DNA of 8,183 bases, taken from NCBI GenBank assembly GCA_020725805.1, contig DYEF01000051.1:1-8183 (forward strand), given 5' to 3'. The translations under genes were made by a program, and so were the position numbers. Below, in pieces: positions 203-8,030 of this stretch. The stretch is from Bdellovibrio sp. (GTDB lineage Bacteria; Myxococcota; SpSt-1050). Every line of letters begins with the position of its first letter. Positions within the stretch are counted from its first letter, which is position 1. The notes below the pieces were generated by a model. That model saw only the letters and a program-made list of their open reading frames with translations, did not search any database and was not told the DNA's origin.

Positions 203-859
203 TCAGCTCTTTGAGATTATTTTCCTTATCTCCTTTTCCAGCACGGACATTGCTGCTATATCCACAACTGAGTGCGGGATCAGAATCCCTGCATTTCTCT
301 TCCTCTTATCTTCGAGCTCATCCGTTGCCCCGAATTCGTCAATATATATTACATCCTTCCTGATTTTATAGCCGTAGGTTGCAACCACAACCTCAATACC
401 CTTATAACTGCAATTTTTCATAAGGGTTTTTGCAGAATCAGTAAGATGAATCTCAAAACCGAAATTTACATACTGCCTGAAATAATCTTTCAGATTACTG
501 ATAACAAATGATTCATTTTTATCTTTGAGAAATGCCCTGAGCTCTCTCTCCATCATCTTATCTGCAAGCGAATGGATACACGCAAGGTTCAGATCAAGCC
601 TCTTTGCCTTATACTCGAGCAGATAATTCTGAACTTCTTTGTCGGGCTCTTTATCTCCCTCGAATGCAAGACTGAATCCGGATACCGGATGATGGACTAT
701 GTAAAGTATATCCCGTTTTTTAATCTGAGGATAAAGATACACATCTTCAATCTCCCATATGATATCTCTTATATCCTCTCCGTTTGAATTTATTACGCCG
801 GAATCTTCATATTCGCCATACTTCTTAACAAGCCTTCTATAGATTTCTGTCGTATTCAT
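203..859 (-). CDS. Hypothetical protein, 218 aa, translationally coupled to the kinase gene
   Basis: I do not recognise this protein. It is soluble-looking and highly charged, with no signal peptide and no membrane segment. The N-terminus (about 1-20) and C-terminus (about 195-218, many Lys/Glu/Ile) look helical. The middle has short hydrophobic strands: ILYIVHHPV near residue 51, GIEVVVATYGYKI near 154 and DVIYIDEFG near 168. The ATG at 859-857 shares one base with the TAA of the upstream kinase gene (TAATG). No Shine-Dalgarno sequence precedes it, because the bases before are AAAATAATG, so translation probably depends on ribosomes finishing the kinase. That coupling suggests the two proteins act together, for example as kinase and substrate or regulator, but nothing in the sequence proves this. 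The stop is TGA at 205-203. Confidence 0.85.
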   Translation of the reverse strand: MNTTEIYRRLVKKYGEYEDSGVINSNGEDIRDIIWEIEDVYLYPQIKKRDILYIVHHPVSGFSLAFEGDKEPDKEVQNYLLEYKAKRLDLNLACIHSLADKMMERELRAFLKDKNESFVISNLKDYFRQYVNFGFEIHLTDSAKTLMKNCSYKGIEVVVATYGYKIRKDVIYIDEFGATDELEDKRKRNAGILIPHSVVDIAAMSVLEKEIRKIISKS

Positions 860-2376
860 TATTTTGTAAGGTCCTCTGTGTATTTTGTCTCTTTACCCGG
901 TTCGATAACCAGTATCTTCTTCCGCACGACATTCAGATCCTCGTTTCTGAACGTCACTTCTACACTGCCTGATTTCAGCTCATAATCGAATACCGGTGTT
1001 GTCCCGATCTTCTTTTTGCCGATATAGACATCCGCCCATGGAATGGCATTAAGAGAGAGTCTCCCCTTTCTTATTTCAGCCGTTTTTGAGGCTGCTTCAT
1101 CAGGCTGCTTCAATACCGGGTTCTTTAGCGCCTTCTTATCCCGGGCAGACTCTTCGTGTACCGGCTCCTTCTCTGCATCAGTAACGGCCGGCTCAATACC
1201 CATTACATCTTCCTCAGAAATATCCGCACCTGCCGAATCACCGGAGGCAAAAACCCTATCTACTGCAGTAATATCATACCAAACGGTGTCGTTAGAAAAA
1301 CCCTTTTCCTCATAACTTCTCGGATATAAAAGAACTGCCAGTACAGAGATAACCGCCAGAAGAAGTATTACAGGAACAATAACCATCTTTTTGTTTTTTG
1401 CCGACCTTTTATCTTCGGACTCTTCCTCGAGAACCTCTGTCCTGTGCGTGTAATCTTTTACATATTCAGGGAAGAGTTCCTTCATAAAATCGCCTATATT
1501 CTCCTCCTCGACGCCGTGCGGGTAATCCTTTACATAAGATTTTAGCTCGTTTGAAAACTCGACTGCACTTTTGTATCTGAACTCAGGGTCATAGGAGAGT
1601 GCCTTCATGATAATCCTCTCCAGTCTCTCATCTATCTCGGGATTGATTGATGACGGTCCTATAATCTCACACCTTCTGACATTCTCCAGAAGTTCAATAT
1701 CATTCTTCCCGTCGAATAATTTATTGCCCGTCAGAGTCTCCCACAGGACAACACCGGTCGAGAATATATCCGTCCTAAGGTCCACATCCTTTCCGAGTGC
1801 CTGCTCCGGCGACATATAATCGATCTTTCCGATTATCGCCCCCTGTGTTGTAAGACCTGTTGAAAGTGAGGCCTTTGCAATACCAAAGTCTGTAATCTTT
1901 ACATCCCCGTTTACAGATATAAGAATATTCTGCGGGCTGATATCCCTGTGGACGATTCCGTATATGTTCTCAGAATCATCCCTGAAATTGTGCGCATATC
2001 CGAGTGCAGAGAGGACATATTCGAAAATTTTTATTGTTCGCGGTATACCTATCGGTCTTCCCTTCGACTGTGAACGTTTAATGACATTCAGCAGGTCAGT
2101 CCCCCTGACATACTCCATAACGAGATAATACCGGTTCTTCTCCTCGAAAAATTCATATACCTGAACAATAGATGAGTGATTGAGCTTTGCCCAGAGTTTT
2201 GCCTCCCTTAAAAATAGTTTTATATATCTTTCGTCTTTCAGAAGGTGCGGGTGAATCGCCTTGATTACGACTTCCTTTACAAATCCGTGAGGACCTTCGA
2301 GAGAGCCCTTATAAATCTCTGCCATTCCGCCGGAGGCTATATATTCTTTGAGCAGATATTTGCCTATCTTTTCCAT
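859..2376 (-). CDS. Transmembrane Ser/Thr protein kinase with C-terminal PEGA domain
   Basis: This is a 505-residue membrane-anchored eukaryotic-like kinase. The cytoplasmic kinase domain spans about residues 7-283. The glycine-rich loop is ASGGMAEIYKG (14-24, with Ala for the first Gly). Other landmarks are the ATP-binding lysine K39 in VVIKA, the helix-C glutamate E58, the catalytic loop HRDISPQN (143-150), DFG (163-165), and the SPEQ end of the activation segment (189-192). All key catalytic residues are present and HRD has its Arg, so it should be active and phosphorylation-controlled; T176, T177 and S172 are candidate sites. A charged linker leads to one membrane span (331-350). A low-complexity acidic/basic stretch follows, then a PEGA-type domain (about 438-503: PWADVYIGKKKIGTTPVFDY), presumably outside the inner membrane. 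PEGA-tailed kinases of this build are frequent in myxobacterial and deltaproteobacterial genomes. The start ATG has only a weak purine tract (AAGAAG, 8 nt upstream). Its stop overlaps the next gene. Confidence 0.95.
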   Translation of the reverse strand: MEKIGKYLLKEYIASGGMAEIYKGSLEGPHGFVKEVVIKAIHPHLLKDERYIKLFLREAKLWAKLNHSSIVQVYEFFEEKNRYYLVMEYVRGTDLLNVIKRSQSKGRPIGIPRTIKIFEYVLSALGYAHNFRDDSENIYGIVHRDISPQNILISVNGDVKITDFGIAKASLSTGLTTQGAIIGKIDYMSPEQALGKDVDLRTDIFSTGVVLWETLTGNKLFDGKNDIELLENVRRCEIIGPSSINPEIDERLERIIMKALSYDPEFRYKSAVEFSNELKSYVKDYPHGVEEENIGDFMKELFPEYVKDYTHRTEVLEEESEDKRSAKNKKMVIVPVILLLAVISVLAVLLYPRSYEEKGFSNDTVWYDITAVDRVFASGDSAGADISEEDVMGIEPAVTDAEKEPVHEESARDKKALKNPVLKQPDEAASKTAEIRKGRLSLNAIPWADVYIGKKKIGTTPVFDYELKSGSVEVTFRNEDLNVVRKKILVIEPGKETKYTEDLTK

Positions 2377-2503: not shown

Positions 2504-2902
2504 TCAGTGAGGTTTGACGTTCTCCCTGACCCAGTTCACAATCTCCTCGATGCTTGTACCGGGTGTAAACAATTTCTTTACCCCGTTCTTATAGAGAAAT
2601 TCGAAGTCATCGTCCGGAATTATACCTCCGCCGAAGACGATTATATCGTCAGCGCCCTTCTCTCTGAGAAGGTTGACAACAGCCGGCATAAGCACATTGT
2701 GTGCACCGCTCATAACGGAGAGCCCTATACAGTCCACATCCTCCTGAATGGCGGTATTCACTATCATCTCGGGCGTCTGATGAAGCCCTGTGTATATTAC
2801 CTCGAATCCCGCATCCCTTAAGGCCCTTGCAACCACCTTTACACCTCTGTCGTGTCCGTCCAGTCCCGGTTTCGCCATAAGTATTCTGACAATCTTTCCC
2901 AT
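2504..2902 (-). CDS. B12-binding small subunit of a methylmalonyl-CoA/isobutyryl-CoA-type mutase
   Basis: This 132-residue protein is a free-standing cobalamin-binding domain, matching the C-terminal part of fused methylmalonyl-CoA mutases. The DxHxxG motif is intact (D15, H17, G20 in PGLDGHDRG). H17 is the residue that replaces dimethylbenzimidazole as lower ligand to cobalt. The second and third signature segments, GLSVMSGAH (60-68) and FGGGIIP (90-96), line the nucleotide-tail pocket, and LFTPGTS (111-117) closes the Rossmann-like fold. Length is normal for stand-alone subunits. It should dimerise with the large subunit encoded just upstream (14-nt gap) to form the active enzyme. The start ATG has AGGAGG 10 nt upstream, overlapping the large-subunit TAG stop. 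This is the last gene of the six-gene operon. By sequence alone the substrate cannot be told from this subunit. Confidence 0.96.
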
Positions 2903-2916
2903 AGGTCTTCTTCCTC

Positions 2917-4596
2917 CTATATTATGCCAGGGTCCTTATATTCCCCGAATACCTCTCTTAATGCACCCATAATCTCGCCGAGGGTTGTGTAAGCCTTTAC
3001 ACAATCGAGTATGTAATACATAAGATTTTCATTAGTTGATGCGGCACCTTTGAGGTCCTTCAGGCACTTCTGAACTTTATTATTATCCCTTTTTTGCCTG
3101 AGTCTTCTGAGTCTCTCCCTCTGTGCCTCCTCCACCTCCTCACCAATCTTCAGAAGCGGTATTTTAAGGTCTTCCTTCATTACATATTTGTTTACTCCTA
3201 CAACCACCTTCTCGCCCTTCTCGAGCTGTTTCTGATAATGATAAGCGGTGTCCGAAATCTCCCTCTGGGGATAACCTGCCTCTATTGCCTTAATTATCCC
3301 TCCCATATTATCGATCTTCTCGATATATCTGAAGGCCTCCTCCTCCATCTTATTTGTCAGATATTCAACAAAATACGAACCGGCAAGAGGGTCTATTACG
3401 TTTGCGATTCCGCTCTCCTCGGCAATAATCTGCTGTGTCCTCAGTGCAACGGTTACTGCCTGCTCTGTCGGAAGTGCAAGTGTCTCATCCATAGAATTTG
3501 TATGGAGTGACTGGGTTCCGCCAAGGACCGCTGCCATTGCCTCTATTGTTGTCCTTACTACATTGTTGAAAGGCTGCTGTGCTGTGAGCGTGCATCCCGC
3601 TGTCTGCGTATGGAATCTGAGTTTTAACGACTCCTCCTTCTGAGCCTTGAATCTGTTCTTCATTATCTTTGCCCACATACGTCTCGCGGCCCTGTACTTC
3701 GCAATCTCTTCAAAGAAATCGATATGGGCGTTGAAAAAATACGAGAGTCTCTTTGCAAAGTCGTCCACATTCAGTCCGGCATCTGTGCAGGCCTGAACAT
3801 AACCTATTCCGTCTGCGATCGTGAATGCCAGTTCCTGAACAGCGGTGGAGCCCGCCTCTCTGATGTGATAACCCGATATGGATATCGTATTCCACTTCGG
3901 TACGTGTTTTGTGCAGTATTCGACTGTATTTACGATAAGCCGCATAGACGGTTCGGGGGGAAAAATCCAGCTCTTCTGGGCAATGTATTCCTTGAGTATA
4001 TCATTCTGGATGGTGCCGCCTATCTGGTCCTGCCTGACACCCTGTTTCTCCGCAACAGCTATATACATAGCAAGAAGCACAGAAGCAGGTCCGTTGATCG
4101 TCATCGAGGTAGTAACCTTATCGAGCGGAATTCCGTCGAAGAGCACCTCCATATCCTCGAGCGAATCGATCGCCACACCACACTTCCCTACCTCACCTCT
4201 CGAGCGGGGATGGTCGCTGTCGTAACCCATAAGAGTCGGGTAATGGAATGCAACCGAGAGACCTGTCTGTCCGTTTTCGAGCAAAAACTTGTATCTCTTA
4301 TTCGTATCGAAGCAGGTTCCGAAACCTGCAAACTGCCTCATAGTCCAGAGTCTTCCTCTGTACATCGTGGGCTGAACACCGCGGGTAAACGGATAACACC
4401 CGGGGAATCCCAGATCCCGGTCATAATCCAGTCCCGCAATATCGGCGGGTGTAGAGAGCTCCGGTACTTCCATATCGGAGACCGTGGAGAATCTCTCGAG
4501 GCGGGGCGGAAGCTTTTCGAAATTCCTTTTGTAGACCTTCTCCTTCCACTCTCTGTATTCCTGTTCTATTCTCTTCTTTTCTTCCTCAGAATACAT
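2917..4596 (-). CDS. Methylmalonyl-CoA mutase family large subunit, probable isobutyryl-CoA mutase
   Basis: This 559-residue protein is the TIM-barrel catalytic subunit of an adenosylcobalamin-dependent acyl-CoA mutase; the B12 domain is a separate downstream gene. Family landmarks: YPFTRG (68-73), [17 protein letters not shown] (77-93), GYDSDHP (124-130), [10 protein letters not shown] (195-204), ISGYH (240-244, with the active-site Tyr243/His244) and [11 protein letters not shown] (361-371). Numbering matches the Propionibacterium enzyme at these sites. Its carboxylate-binding Tyr89 and Arg207 are Phe89 (RQFAG) and Gln207 (YIAQK) here, the known isobutyryl-CoA mutase pair (Phe80/Gln198 in Streptomyces). 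Residue 116 is Ala, not the Asp of 2-hydroxyisobutyryl-CoA mutase. The inferred reaction is therefore isobutyryl-CoA <-> n-butyryl-CoA, which fits the butyryl-CoA genes upstream. Family is certain; substrate is inference, and a bulkier non-carboxylated acyl-CoA such as pivalyl-CoA remains possible. The start has AGGAGG 9 nt upstream, fused with the preceding TAG stop. Confidence 0.96.
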
Positions 4597-4609
4597 CTTT
4601 GATTACCTC

Positions 4610-5152
4610 CTATCTTTCTATCCCGTCGCGGGCATCGATACCTTTCGAATAATAGTGCTTTATCTCCCTGACTTCCGATACGAGGTCGGCAATATCCAGA
4701 AACTCCTGCGGGGCATATCTCCCTGTCAGAATCACCTCCACATTTTCCGGTCTTTCCTTTAGAATTCTGATTACCTCATTTTTGTCTATCAGATTGAAAT
4801 CGGCTGCTACATTTACTTCGTCGAGAACAACAATATCATACTCACCACTCTTAATTATTTTTTCAGCAAGCCTTAAGGCGTCCTGTGCCATCTCGATATC
4901 TATCCTTTCAGGATTCTGCTTCGAGACGAAATCGGGCCGTCCCATCTGCTCGATCGTTATAAGACCGTTCATAAGCTTTGCCGAATTCAGTTCGCCATAG
5001 ACAATCTGACCTTTCATAAACTGAATTATAAACGACCTGAGTCCGTGACCGGCCGCCCTGAAACAGAGCCCGAGAGCAGAAGTGGTCTTCCCCTTTCCGT
5101 TACCGGTGTAAACCTGTATCAGCCCTTTTGTGAGTCTGCTCCTATTCTGCAT
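4610..5152 (-). CDS. cobO: Cob(I)alamin adenosyltransferase, CobA/CobO/BtuR type
   Basis: The enzyme transfers the adenosyl group of ATP to cob(I)alamin, making adenosylcobalamin, the cofactor of the mutase encoded next. From the ATG at 5152 it has 180 residues. The family P-loop is TGNGKGKTT (16-24), followed by IIQFMKG (42-48) that shapes the corrinoid site, LDEVNVAADF (110-119) with a Walker-B-like Asp-Glu, and the C-terminal REIKHYYSKGIDARDGIE typical of CobA/CobO. Length is normal. Start choice: an in-frame TTG at 5173 would add seven residues and has GAGG 7 nt upstream. I prefer the ATG, because GAGGGAG lies 10 nt upstream and family N-termini in compact versions begin just before this LTKG segment. 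The ATG overlaps the acyl-CoA dehydrogenase stop by 11 nt, suggesting translational coupling. Placement between dehydrogenase and mutase suggests dedicated cofactor supply rather than de novo B12 synthesis. Confidence 0.94.
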   Translation of the reverse strand: MQNRSRLTKGLIQVYTGNGKGKTTSALGLCFRAAGHGLRSFIIQFMKGQIVYGELNSAKLMNGLITIEQMGRPDFVSKQNPERIDIEMAQDALRLAEKIIKSGEYDIVVLDEVNVAADFNLIDKNEVIRILKERPENVEVILTGRYAPQEFLDIADLVSEVREIKHYYSKGIDARDGIER

Positions 5153-6290
5153 TTTTGAGAATCTCCCTCGCAATCACAATCCTCTGAATCTCGCTCGTCC
5201 CTTCATAAATTGTCGTCACCCTTGCATCCCTGTAATACCGTTCGACATTGTATTCCTCGATATACCCGTATCCGCCGTGAATCTGAATCGCCTCCGCACA
5301 TATCCTGTTGGCAATCTCTGTCGAATAGAGTTTCGCCATCGATGCCTCTTTGGTGTAATTTCTCTTCTTCTCCTTGAGGAATGCCGCCCTCAGCGTCAGC
5401 AATCTCGCCGCATCCAGCGTCGTAGCCGAGTCCGCGATCTTCCATTGAATCGCCTGAAACTCCGATATCTTCTTGCCGAAGGCCTGTCTCTCCAGAGCAT
5501 ATCTGACCGCTGCCTCGAGCGCCGCATCTGCAATACCGATCGCCTGAGATGCAATACCGATTCTGCCGCCGTTCAATGCCGTCATTCCTATTTCAAACCC
5601 CTTCCCCTCTGTCCCCAGAAGATTTGCGGCCGGTACTGCACAGTCACAGAAATCGAGAGATACCGTATTCGATGCCCTCAGCCCCATTTTCTTCTCTTCC
5701 TTACCGATTATGAGCCCGTCTGTTCCCTTCTCGACGACAAAAGCGGATATCCCTTTTTTACCCTTCGCCTTATCAGTCACCGCATAAACAATAATGCACC
5801 CTGCATAAGCCCCGCTCGTAATGAAGACCTTGTTTCCGTTCAGGATATATTTGTCGCCCTTCTTAACTGCGGTCGTCCTTATTGCACCGGCATCAGAACC
5901 TGCGTGAGGCTCAGTCAGGGCAAATGCGCCGGCTACGTATTCACCGGAAGTTATCTTCGGGATATATCTCTTCTTCGTCTCCTCGCTTGCGTACTGATTT
6001 ATTATCTCCGCTACCATATTCGTAACAGACATCGTAACGGCGGTCGAGGCGCAGGCCTTTGCGATCTCAGACAATGCAAGAGAATATGCCACAACGCCCG
6101 ATTCGGCCCCGCCATACTCCTGAGGAATATTTACGCCCATAAGTCCGAGTTCGGCGAGTTTCTTCAGTATTGCTTTCGGGAAGTGTCCTTCACGTTCATA
6201 TCTGCCGGCAACAGGCGCAATCTCCTTCTTTGCGAAGTCACGCGCCATATCCCTTATCATCTTCTGTTCTTCGGTAATGTCAAAATTCAT
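5142..6290 (-). CDS. Acyl-CoA dehydrogenase, short-chain (butyryl-CoA type)
   Basis: This is a 382-residue FAD flavoprotein of standard family length that introduces the alpha-beta double bond in acyl-CoA and passes electrons to ETF. An N-terminal helical domain (about 1-118) is followed by the flavin signature AFALTEPHAGSD (122-133) and ITSG (157-160) in the beta domain. In the C-terminal helical domain are ERQAFGKKISEFQ (267-279), QIHGGYGY (336-343) and the catalytic-base segment IYEGTSEIQ, with E363 at the position of Glu376 in the medium-chain enzyme. This IYEGTSEIQ placement is the butyryl-/short-chain pattern rather than the isovaleryl type, where the base sits elsewhere. Butyryl-CoA is the likely substrate given crt and hbd upstream; isobutyryl-CoA (valine degradation) is an alternative. 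ETF genes are not in the window. GAGGTG precedes the ATG by 5 nt; the gap to crt is 12 nt. The gene has no TTA, CTA or TCA codon. Confidence 0.96.
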   Translation of the reverse strand: MNFDITEEQKMIRDMARDFAKKEIAPVAGRYEREGHFPKAILKKLAELGLMGVNIPQEYGGAESGVVAYSLALSEIAKACASTAVTMSVTNMVAEIINQYASEETKKRYIPKITSGEYVAGAFALTEPHAGSDAGAIRTTAVKKGDKYILNGNKVFITSGAYAGCIIVYAVTDKAKGKKGISAFVVEKGTDGLIIGKEEKKMGLRASNTVSLDFCDCAVPAANLLGTEGKGFEIGMTALNGGRIGIASQAIGIADAALEAAVRYALERQAFGKKISEFQAIQWKIADSATTLDAARLLTLRAAFLKEKKRNYTKEASMAKLYSTEIANRICAEAIQIHGGYGYIEEYNVERYYRDARVTTIYEGTSEIQRIVIAREILKNAE

Positions 6291-6302
6291 CTTCTCACCT
6301 CG

Positions 6303-7085
6303 TTATTTTCCCTTGAACTGCGGGGCTCTCTTCTCCAGAAACGCCTTCGCCCCCTCCCTCTGGTCCTCGGTTCCGAAAAGGGTAATAAAGCAGAGTTTTT
6401 CGATTTCATTTGCAGTCTTAAGGTCGTGGTCCATACCGAATATCATCGAACGTTTTGCAGCCCTGATGGCAAGAGGTCCCCTCTTCATAATCGTTTTGGC
6501 GATCTCCTTTACCTTCACCATAAGTTCGGCCTGAGGGAAGATATTATTGACGAGCCCTATCTCCTTTGCCCTCTGGGCAGGTATCTTATCTCCTGTAAAG
6601 ACAAGTTCCTTTGCAAGATGTCTGCCGATCAGCCTCTGAAGTCTCTGGGTTCCGCCGAAACCCGGGATTATCGCAAGTGTAACCTCGGGGAGCCCGAAAA
6701 AGGCATTTTCGGAGGCATAAATCATATCACAGGCGATCGCAAGTTCGGTCCCTCCGCCGAGTGCATAACCGTTGACAGCGGCAATTACAGGGACAGGGAA
6801 TGACTCTATCATATCCATAACCCTCTGACCGAGGTCCACAAATGCGCTCGCCCCTTCCGGAGTAAGCGTCGGGAATGTGGAGATATCGGCTCCCGCTACA
6901 AATGCCTTCTCTCCGGCACCTGTAAATATGAGCACCTGAGTTTTGTTCTCGTTTTTTATTTCGTAAAGCGCACATTCAATCTCATTTAAGGTCTCGACAT
7001 TGAGCGCATTGAGCGATTTGGGTCTGTTGATAGTGATTGTCGAAATTCCTTCCTCGAAACTTACAATGATATTCTTATATTCCAT
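6303..7085 (-). CDS. crt: Enoyl-CoA hydratase / crotonase
   Basis: This 260-residue soluble enzyme hydrates crotonyl-CoA to 3-hydroxybutyryl-CoA, or runs the reverse. It has the crotonase fold throughout. The oxyanion-hole segment AFVAGADI is at 61-68. The second oxyanion segment, NGYALGGGTELA (105-116), carries catalytic E114. FGLPEVTLAIIPGFGGTQRL (130-149) carries catalytic E134. Both glutamates of true hydratases are kept, so this is not an isomerase-only or decarboxylase variant. Length is typical. The C-terminus, with EGAKAFLEKRAPQFKGK, is a standard ending for the family and contacts the CoA site of the trimer partner. The ATG has AAGGAGG 7 nt upstream and lies 18 nt after the hbd stop. 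Chain length specificity cannot be read directly; the C4 assignment comes from the neighbours hbd and the acyl-CoA dehydrogenase. Confidence 0.96.
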   Translation of the reverse strand: MEYKNIIVSFEEGISTITINRPKSLNALNVETLNEIECALYEIKNENKTQVLIFTGAGEKAFVAGADISTFPTLTPEGASAFVDLGQRVMDMIESFPVPVIAAVNGYALGGGTELAIACDMIYASENAFFGLPEVTLAIIPGFGGTQRLQRLIGRHLAKELVFTGDKIPAQRAKEIGLVNNIFPQAELMVKVKEIAKTIMKRGPLAIRAAKRSMIFGMDHDLKTANEIEKLCFITLFGTEDQREGAKAFLEKRAPQFKGK

Positions 7086-7103
7086 AGTAAAGCCTCCTTA
7101 AAA

Positions 7104-7952
7104 TCAGTATTTGTAAAATCCTCTCTTTGTCTTTCTCCCGAGCCATCCGGCATCCACATACTTTCTCAGAAGCGGACAGGGTCTGTATTTGCTGTCACCG
7201 AGTCCTCTATGCAGAACCTCCATAATTGCGAGGCATGTATCAAGACCGATCAGGTCTGCGAGGGCAAGTGGTCCCATCGGGTGATTCGTCCCGAGCTTCA
7301 TTCCGTTGTCAATATCCTCCGGAGTCCCCAGCCCTTCGTAAAGTGCATAAACCGCCTCGTTTATCATCGGCATCAGGATCCTGTTTACAATGAACCCGGG
7401 GGAATCGAGTGAAGTTATACAGGTTTTCCCCATCTTTTCGGCAAGAGCCTTCGTGGTGTTATATGTCTCATCGTCCGTTGCGAGTCCCCTTATCAGTTCC
7501 ACAAGCTGCATAATCGGGACAGGGTTCATAAAGTGCATACCGATCACCTTCTCAGGTCTTTTTGTCGCTGAACCTATTCTGGTAATCGGAATAGATGAAG
7601 TATTTGTAGCAAGTATTGCGTGCGGCGGTGCTACCTCGTCCAGTTCCTTAAAGATATTCAGTTTGAGTTGTTCGTTCTCCGTTGCCGCCTCGATATAAAT
7701 ATCGCAGTCTCTCAGGTCGGAAATCTTCGTGTAACAGGCCAGATGATTCATTGCGGAATGAACCTGATCTTCCGTAAGTTTCCCTTTTTCCTGAAATTTT
7801 CTGAGAGACTTTACAATACTGTCTCTCCCCCTGTCTAAAAATTCTTCCTTGATGTCCATCAGTTTTACAGTGAATCCCGTGGTCATACCAACCTGTGCAA
7901 TCCCGGAACCCATCTGCCCTGCACCGATTACTGCAATGGTCTTGATATTCAT
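7104..7952 (-). CDS. hbd: 3-hydroxybutyryl-CoA dehydrogenase
   Basis: This 282-residue enzyme interconverts (S)-3-hydroxybutyryl-CoA and acetoacetyl-CoA. The N-terminal Rossmann domain has GAGQMGSG (10-17) and an acidic residue, D33, at the end of the second strand (KLMDI), which favours NAD over NADP. The catalytic pair is H140 in GMHFMNPVP and E152, spaced 12 apart as in the mammalian enzyme. S119/S120 and N190 (GFIVNR) complete the active site. The C-terminal dimerisation domain has LGTNHPMGPLALADLIGLD and ends with the family's GRKTKRGFYKY. Length is exactly that of stand-alone bacterial versions. It is the first gene of the operon. GGAGG lies 6 nt before the ATG, and a promoter sits about 50 nt upstream. 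In a degradation direction it makes acetoacetyl-CoA for a thiolase that is not encoded here. Confidence 0.97.
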   Translation of the reverse strand: MNIKTIAVIGAGQMGSGIAQVGMTTGFTVKLMDIKEEFLDRGRDSIVKSLRKFQEKGKLTEDQVHSAMNHLACYTKISDLRDCDIYIEAATENEQLKLNIFKELDEVAPPHAILATNTSSIPITRIGSATKRPEKVIGMHFMNPVPIMQLVELIRGLATDDETYNTTKALAEKMGKTCITSLDSPGFIVNRILMPMINEAVYALYEGLGTPEDIDNGMKLGTNHPMGPLALADLIGLDTCLAIMEVLHRGLGDSKYRPCPLLRKYVDAGWLGRKTKRGFYKY

Positions 7953-7996: not shown

Positions 7997-8016
7997 GAGT
8001 TATACTATTTTAACTC
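7997..8016. promoter_or_regulatory. Operator-like dyad over the -10 box (GAGTTA-N8-TAACTC)
   Basis: GAGTTA and its exact complement TAACTC flank 8 nt (minus-strand reading), giving a 20-bp dyad centred inside the -10 hexamer at 8007-8002. A repressor bound here would block RNA polymerase. The half-sites resemble the GTTA/TAAC arms of Rex sites, but the spacing is two bases too wide (8 rather than 6 between GTTA and TAAC). A TetR-family regulator of fatty acid genes is another option. No regulator gene is present nearby. Confidence 0.45.
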
Positions 8017-8030
8017 TGGTTCATAGTCAA
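8002..8030 (-). promoter_or_regulatory. Sigma70-like promoter of the hbd operon
   Basis: On the minus strand TTGACT (8030-8025, five of six matches to TTGACA) is followed after exactly 17 nt by TAGTAT (8007-8002, four of six to TATAAT). Transcription would start near 7995, giving a leader of about 43 nt before the hbd ATG at 7952. That leader contains GCCC-TTG-GGGC (7995-7985), a small hairpin right at the predicted start, and the GGAGG at 7963-7959. The leader is too short for a cobalamin riboswitch. Confidence 0.6.

Follow-up and report, generated by a model that had tools for sequence, protein, structure and literature searches.

Gene clusters for isobutyryl-CoA mutase are of a known kind, since such genes have been described in two studies. 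In Syntrophothermus and its relatives, the mutase is encoded together with an adenosyltransferase and a MeaB-like protein (Narihiro et al. 2016, PMC5017805), and related genes were reported from Syntrophomonas BUT1 (PMC6687939). We analyzed a window of 8,183 nucleotides, the entire contig DYEF01000051.1 (C46 in our numbering) of a Bdellovibrio sp. assembly from the phylum Myxococcota (GCA_020725805.1; 3.29 Mb, 98% complete), in which six minus-strand open reading frames (ORFs) lie head to tail from 2504 to 7952: hbd, crt, acd, cobA/btuR, a mutase large subunit, and a B12-binding small subunit. Judging from sequence, this operon very probably encodes an isobutyryl-CoA mutase (ICM), the adenosyltransferase CobA/BtuR, and the enzymes Acd, Crt, and Hbd, which together would link isobutyryl-CoA, butyryl-CoA, and acetoacetyl-CoA.

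The locus resembles Slip_0757-0760 of Syntrophothermus lipocalidus TGB-C1 (PMC5017805), in which split large and B12-binding subunits are accompanied by a cob(I)alamin adenosyltransferase and for which conversion of isobutyryl-CoA to butyryl-CoA for beta-oxidation was proposed. However, the S. lipocalidus cluster includes MeaB and its beta-oxidation genes are in separate clusters, whereas the window operon includes hbd, crt, and acd, with MeaB on a different contig (C2). By description, the mutase is also like IcmA/IcmB of Streptomyces cinnamonensis, a two-subunit, adenosylcobalamin (AdoCbl)-dependent mutase that interconverts isobutyryl-CoA and butyryl-CoA, although the Streptomyces enzyme feeds polyketide precursors. 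What is new here is the operon shared by hbd-crt-acd and the mutase, the lineage, and a histidine at mutase residue 118 (His118).

Two specificity sites discriminate acyl-CoA mutases, with Tyr/Arg marking methylmalonyl-CoA mutase (MCM) (Jost et al. 2015, as summarized in PMC7238569). We drew this two-site rule from that summary and from solved sequences. The window large subunit aligned over its full length with 2-hydroxyisobutyryl-CoA mutase (HCM, 4r3u; 601 bits) and with human MCM (536 bits). At the two sites, the alignment places Phe89 and Gln207 of the window protein against Tyr and Arg in human MCM and Ile and Gln in HCM. MCM belongs to the same family (PF01642) but differs in this pair and in the carboxylase or epimerase neighbors found in relatives. 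HCM, the closest solved sequence, likewise has split subunits and Gln at the second site but has Asp at position 116, where the window protein has Ala116. The solved fused ICM, IcmF (4xc6), has the same pair as the window protein, Phe (TRMFAGEG) and Gln (EDQGQNTC); unlike the window mutase, it is a single chain with a G-protein domain, and it scored only 301 bits. In the translated small subunit, the DxHxxG motif reads DGHDRG.

Of the rows in which over 350 residues aligned, 59 had the pair Tyr/Arg (Y/R) and 52 had Phe/Gln (F/Q); one other row had Q with the first site missing and another had R with the first site unreadable. The odd pairs DH and ER came from second, divergent mutase-family subunits in two loci (L114 and L115). 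In a quick tree, built without any characterized split ICM sequence, the F/Q mutases fell into one clade of 53 (SH-aLRT 99), with a fused IcmF-type row (L152) apart and both HCM and human MCM outside. F/Q versus Y/R changed twice across the whole tree. Taken together, the residue pair, the separate B12 subunit, and the tree position make the assignment of the predicted window mutase as a two-subunit ICM well supported.

We then compared gene neighborhoods for 100 mutases (51 F/Q and 49 Y/R) in loci of varying length, scoring same-strand genes up to 5 kb away by tblastn, with at least 40% identity for the beta-oxidation genes. An acd gene was found near 17 of 51 F/Q mutases and hbd near 8 of 51, compared to 0 of 49 Y/R mutases in both cases. 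At least one of acd, hbd, crt, and thiolase occurred near 20/51 F/Q and 0/49 Y/R mutases, and cobA near 17/51 and 0/49. Conversely, propionyl-CoA carboxylase (PCC) or epimerase adjoined none of the 51 F/Q mutases but 18 of the 49 Y/R mutases; in the two apparent exceptions (L054 and L074), a second mutase lies closer to the carboxylase or epimerase. The preliminary description of this locus had named the flanks of relatives beforehand as a place where its reading could fail, and these counts bear the reading out. Fisher tests gave p of about 1e-7 for the neighborhood contrasts but presume an independence that fails here. Recurrence in distant lineages, namely, the window's phylum, Syntrophomonadaceae, and Eisenbacteria, is the stronger point. 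Seven same-phylum loci (L126-L132) have part or all of hbd-acd-cobA-mut-small-MeaB, with only acd and mut detected in L132. Fuller modules occur in L045 (Candidatus Eisenbacteria, 1-14887), where cobA-MeaB-mut-small-acd-thiolase-hbd-acd-EtfB-EtfA lie on one strand, and in L053, where thiolase-hbd-crt-acd is followed by mut, small, and EtfB. A crt gene beside the mutase was seen in 1/51 F/Q loci and is, in this set, a trait of the window's genus, plus the looser case of L053.

The gene order hbd-crt-acd-cobA-mut was kept in a genome of the same genus (G001, locus L113) until its contig ends, at 83-94% protein identity. The orthologs had dN of 0.05-0.11 with saturated dS, which precludes a dN/dS ratio. 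From the kept order, identity, and dN, the gene unit is therefore real and conserved, and chance juxtaposition is excluded for practical purposes. Spacing by coordinates was 18 nt for hbd-crt, 12 nt for crt-acd, 13 nt for cobA-mut, and 14 nt for mut-small, while acd and cobA overlap. The six genes had been named in the preliminary description with gaps of 18 nt or less, and all six ORFs matched the named families. The features are collected in the table below.

Features of the operon and its upstream region, with positions in the window
Feature	Positions	Strand	Length (aa)	Evidence
hbd, 3-hydroxybutyryl-CoA dehydrogenase, first gene	7104..7952	-	282	PRK05808 446.9 bits, cut-off 408
crt, short-chain enoyl-CoA hydratase (crotonase)	6303..7085	-	260	PRK05809, ECH_1
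acd, short-chain (butyryl-type) acyl-CoA dehydrogenase	5142..6290	-	382	Pfam Acyl-CoA_dh N/M/C over cut-off
cobA/btuR, ATP:corrinoid adenosyltransferase	4610..5152	-	180	PF02572 216.5 bits; TIGR00708 173.9, cut-off 167.75
icmA-type large subunit, Phe89/Gln207	2917..4596	-	559	TIGR00641 826 bits, cut-off 303.8
icmB-type B12-binding small subunit	2504..2902	-	132	TIGR00640 177 bits, cut-off 57.5; PF02310
Candidate sigma-70-like promoter upstream of hbd	8002..8030	-		TTGACT-17-TAGTAT, 9/12 consensus match only; about 12 such matches expected by chance in the window

Acd, Crt, and Hbd would make up a short-chain-type butyryl-CoA beta-oxidation set. For Crt, the best subfamily was PRK05809 at 306 bits, under its cut-off of 394, while Pfam ECH_1 was over its cut-off at 225 bits. 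Acd was closest among solved relatives to bacterial acyl-CoA dehydrogenases (403 bits) and short-chain acyl-CoA dehydrogenase (1jqi, 395 bits), with ACAD8 (1rx0) lower at 299 bits. The hbd ortholog in L113 is 88% identical; there, the unit opens with hbd, preceded by 512 nt. The mechanical ORF of cobA begins at TTG 5173, but its start is probably ATG 5152, giving an 11-nt overlap with acd, because the L113 ortholog begins at the equivalent codon. Sequence upstream of 8183 is invisible because the window is the whole contig. Downstream of the operon, a search of the minus strand found no terminator-like site. A Ser/Thr protein kinase gene with a C-terminal extension (859-2376, minus strand) follows the B12 subunit gene after a 127-nt gap and adjoins a 218-aa protein (203-859) that had no family match. 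Kinases of this sort are common in myxobacterial-type genomes.

We searched the host genome with single-family profiles and inspected the stretches around the matches. The window large subunit is the sole MM_CoA_mutase-family protein in the genome, which also encodes one MeaB, two thiolases over the cut-off, one electron transfer flavoprotein (ETF) pair, five acyl-CoA dehydrogenases, and four POR proteins. The operon had been called a self-contained module, which was too strong, as the genes for MeaB, thiolase, ETF, and acyl activation are at other loci in the genome. Behind the MeaB gene on C2 come a lipoprotein gene and a thioredoxin-like gene. In a genome of the same order (G002), a similar lipoprotein gene adjoins a MeaB gene located after mut and small (synteny by eye); this suggests that the window mutase has the MeaB encoded on C2 as its partner.

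The same genome-wide searches found no methylmalonyl-CoA epimerase and, despite 98% completeness, no PF01039 carboxyltransferase, AccD included. This extends the earlier remark that the locus has neither epimerase nor PCC, but the carboxylase absence is supportive rather than conclusive because no AccD was found either. A bacterium without AccD is unusual. In this genome, AccD may have been missed or be missing, or fatty acids may be made by another route. A search of the genome for an E1_dh-type branched-chain 2-oxoacid dehydrogenase found none, which makes a ferredoxin oxidoreductase the likelier entry point for valine, although a firm assignment to 2-oxoisovalerate was possible for none of the POR systems. 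The genes for butyrate kinase (Buk) and indolepyruvate ferredoxin oxidoreductase (IorA) and a phosphate butyryltransferase (Ptb)-like gene form one cluster on contig C88. Beside the ETF genes is a 707-aa protein with 4Fe-4S and CCG domains and, read by eye, N-terminal hydrophobic segments; it resembles ETF:quinone-type oxidoreductases, a role it may share. Lysine 5,6-aminomutase was also found; KamA-KamD-KamE lie in a row on contig C55 (L158, 9453-13000), and Kdd adjoins a second acyl-CoA dehydrogenase on C57 (L119, 4586-6803). These genes point to a likely lysine fermentation, which would also lead to crotonyl-CoA.

From these data we infer the substrate, direction, and electron path as follows. 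The source of isobutyryl-CoA would be either valine, by way of a 2-oxoacid:ferredoxin oxidoreductase, or external isobutyrate, by way of Buk/Ptb. The AdoCbl-dependent mutase, its cofactor adenosylated by CobA/BtuR, would rearrange isobutyryl-CoA to n-butyryl-CoA, which Acd, Crt, and Hbd would oxidize to acetoacetyl-CoA for cleavage by a thiolase encoded at another locus. Electrons from Acd would pass to ETF and then to the membrane Fe-S oxidoreductase. All steps would be reversible in principle. We favor the oxidative direction, for valine or isobutyrate carbon, given that an ETF/Fe-S pair is present and that no methylmalonyl route for propionyl-CoA is visible.

By default, this protein would be read as part of propionate metabolism because the best curated models carry the name methylmalonyl-CoA mutase. 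An MCM of a propionate pathway, with the beta-oxidation genes adjacent by chance, is nevertheless highly improbable: those model names span the whole mutase family, the pair is not Y/R, the genome search returned neither epimerase nor carboxyltransferase, none of the 51 F/Q relatives has such neighbors, and the same-genus genome has the identical gene order. The residue pair, clade, neighborhoods, and genome inventory instead make isobutyryl-CoA/butyryl-CoA/acetoacetyl-CoA interconversion the most likely function, as had been proposed from the window alone. A variant of this reading, not exclusive of it, has the operon working mainly in the forming direction, with butyryl-CoA made from lysine or acetyl-CoA, partly isomerized, and released as butyrate or isobutyrate via Ptb and Buk with a gain of ATP. 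Buk, Ptb, and the lysine fermentation genes speak for such formation, and reversible isomerization of butyrate and isobutyrate has been described in clostridia (PMC7764203). However, the placement of the ETF pair next to a CCG/4Fe-4S membrane-type oxidoreductase fits a cell in which acyl-CoA oxidation drives the reduction of an acceptor, complex-I-like genes were seen by inspection on C57, and the Ptb-like gene scores 287, below its curated cut-off of 410. We regard a mainly forming operon as possible but the less probable direction.

Several points weigh against isobutyryl-CoA/butyryl-CoA interconversion by this operon. With F/Q mutases forming nearly a single clade, the neighborhood association lacks phylogenetic independence, the absence of PF01039 is possibly a false negative or due to a missing contig, and the putative operon membership of the six genes is deduced from spacing. 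His118 might also mean altered function. Residue 118 (4243-4245, minus strand) is Asp in the solved sequences seen and in 59 of the 60 Y/R rows of the tree, none of which has His, while His occurs in 19 of 53 F/Q rows (the window protein and 18 others) with six changes on the quick tree. Asp at this site is not among the published hallmarks of ICMs, and the substitution could be neutral or touch substrate handling. With HCM as the top solved relative by score, His118 would fit a pocket tuned to another acyl-CoA (pivalyl/isovaleryl-, 2-hydroxyisobutyryl-, or new). This is unlikely, given that the Ile and Asp of HCM are both absent, HCM is outside the F/Q clade, and Acd, Crt, and Hbd, encoded in the same operon, are of C4 type. 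A speculative and rather unlikely extension is that Asp118-to-His, seen in this set only in F/Q mutases and apparently acquired repeatedly, defines an ICM-type subgroup of distinct function whose substrate range or direction is altered, and that the operon would be a single-transcript valine/isobutyrate route via butyryl-CoA replacing the propionyl-CoA route in this lineage. Three contigs of Lokiarchaeota/Sigynarchaeota (L060, L071, and L081) encode an F/Q mutase with His118, a B12 subunit, and MeaB, and L060 and L081 have a cobA-like match upstream.

Residue pair and neighborhood gave a clean split of the two functions across 100 loci. ICM-type assignment predicts isobutyrate or valine use via butyryl-CoA in uncultured lineages, including Asgard-type archaea, in which isobutyrate turnover is poorly assigned.

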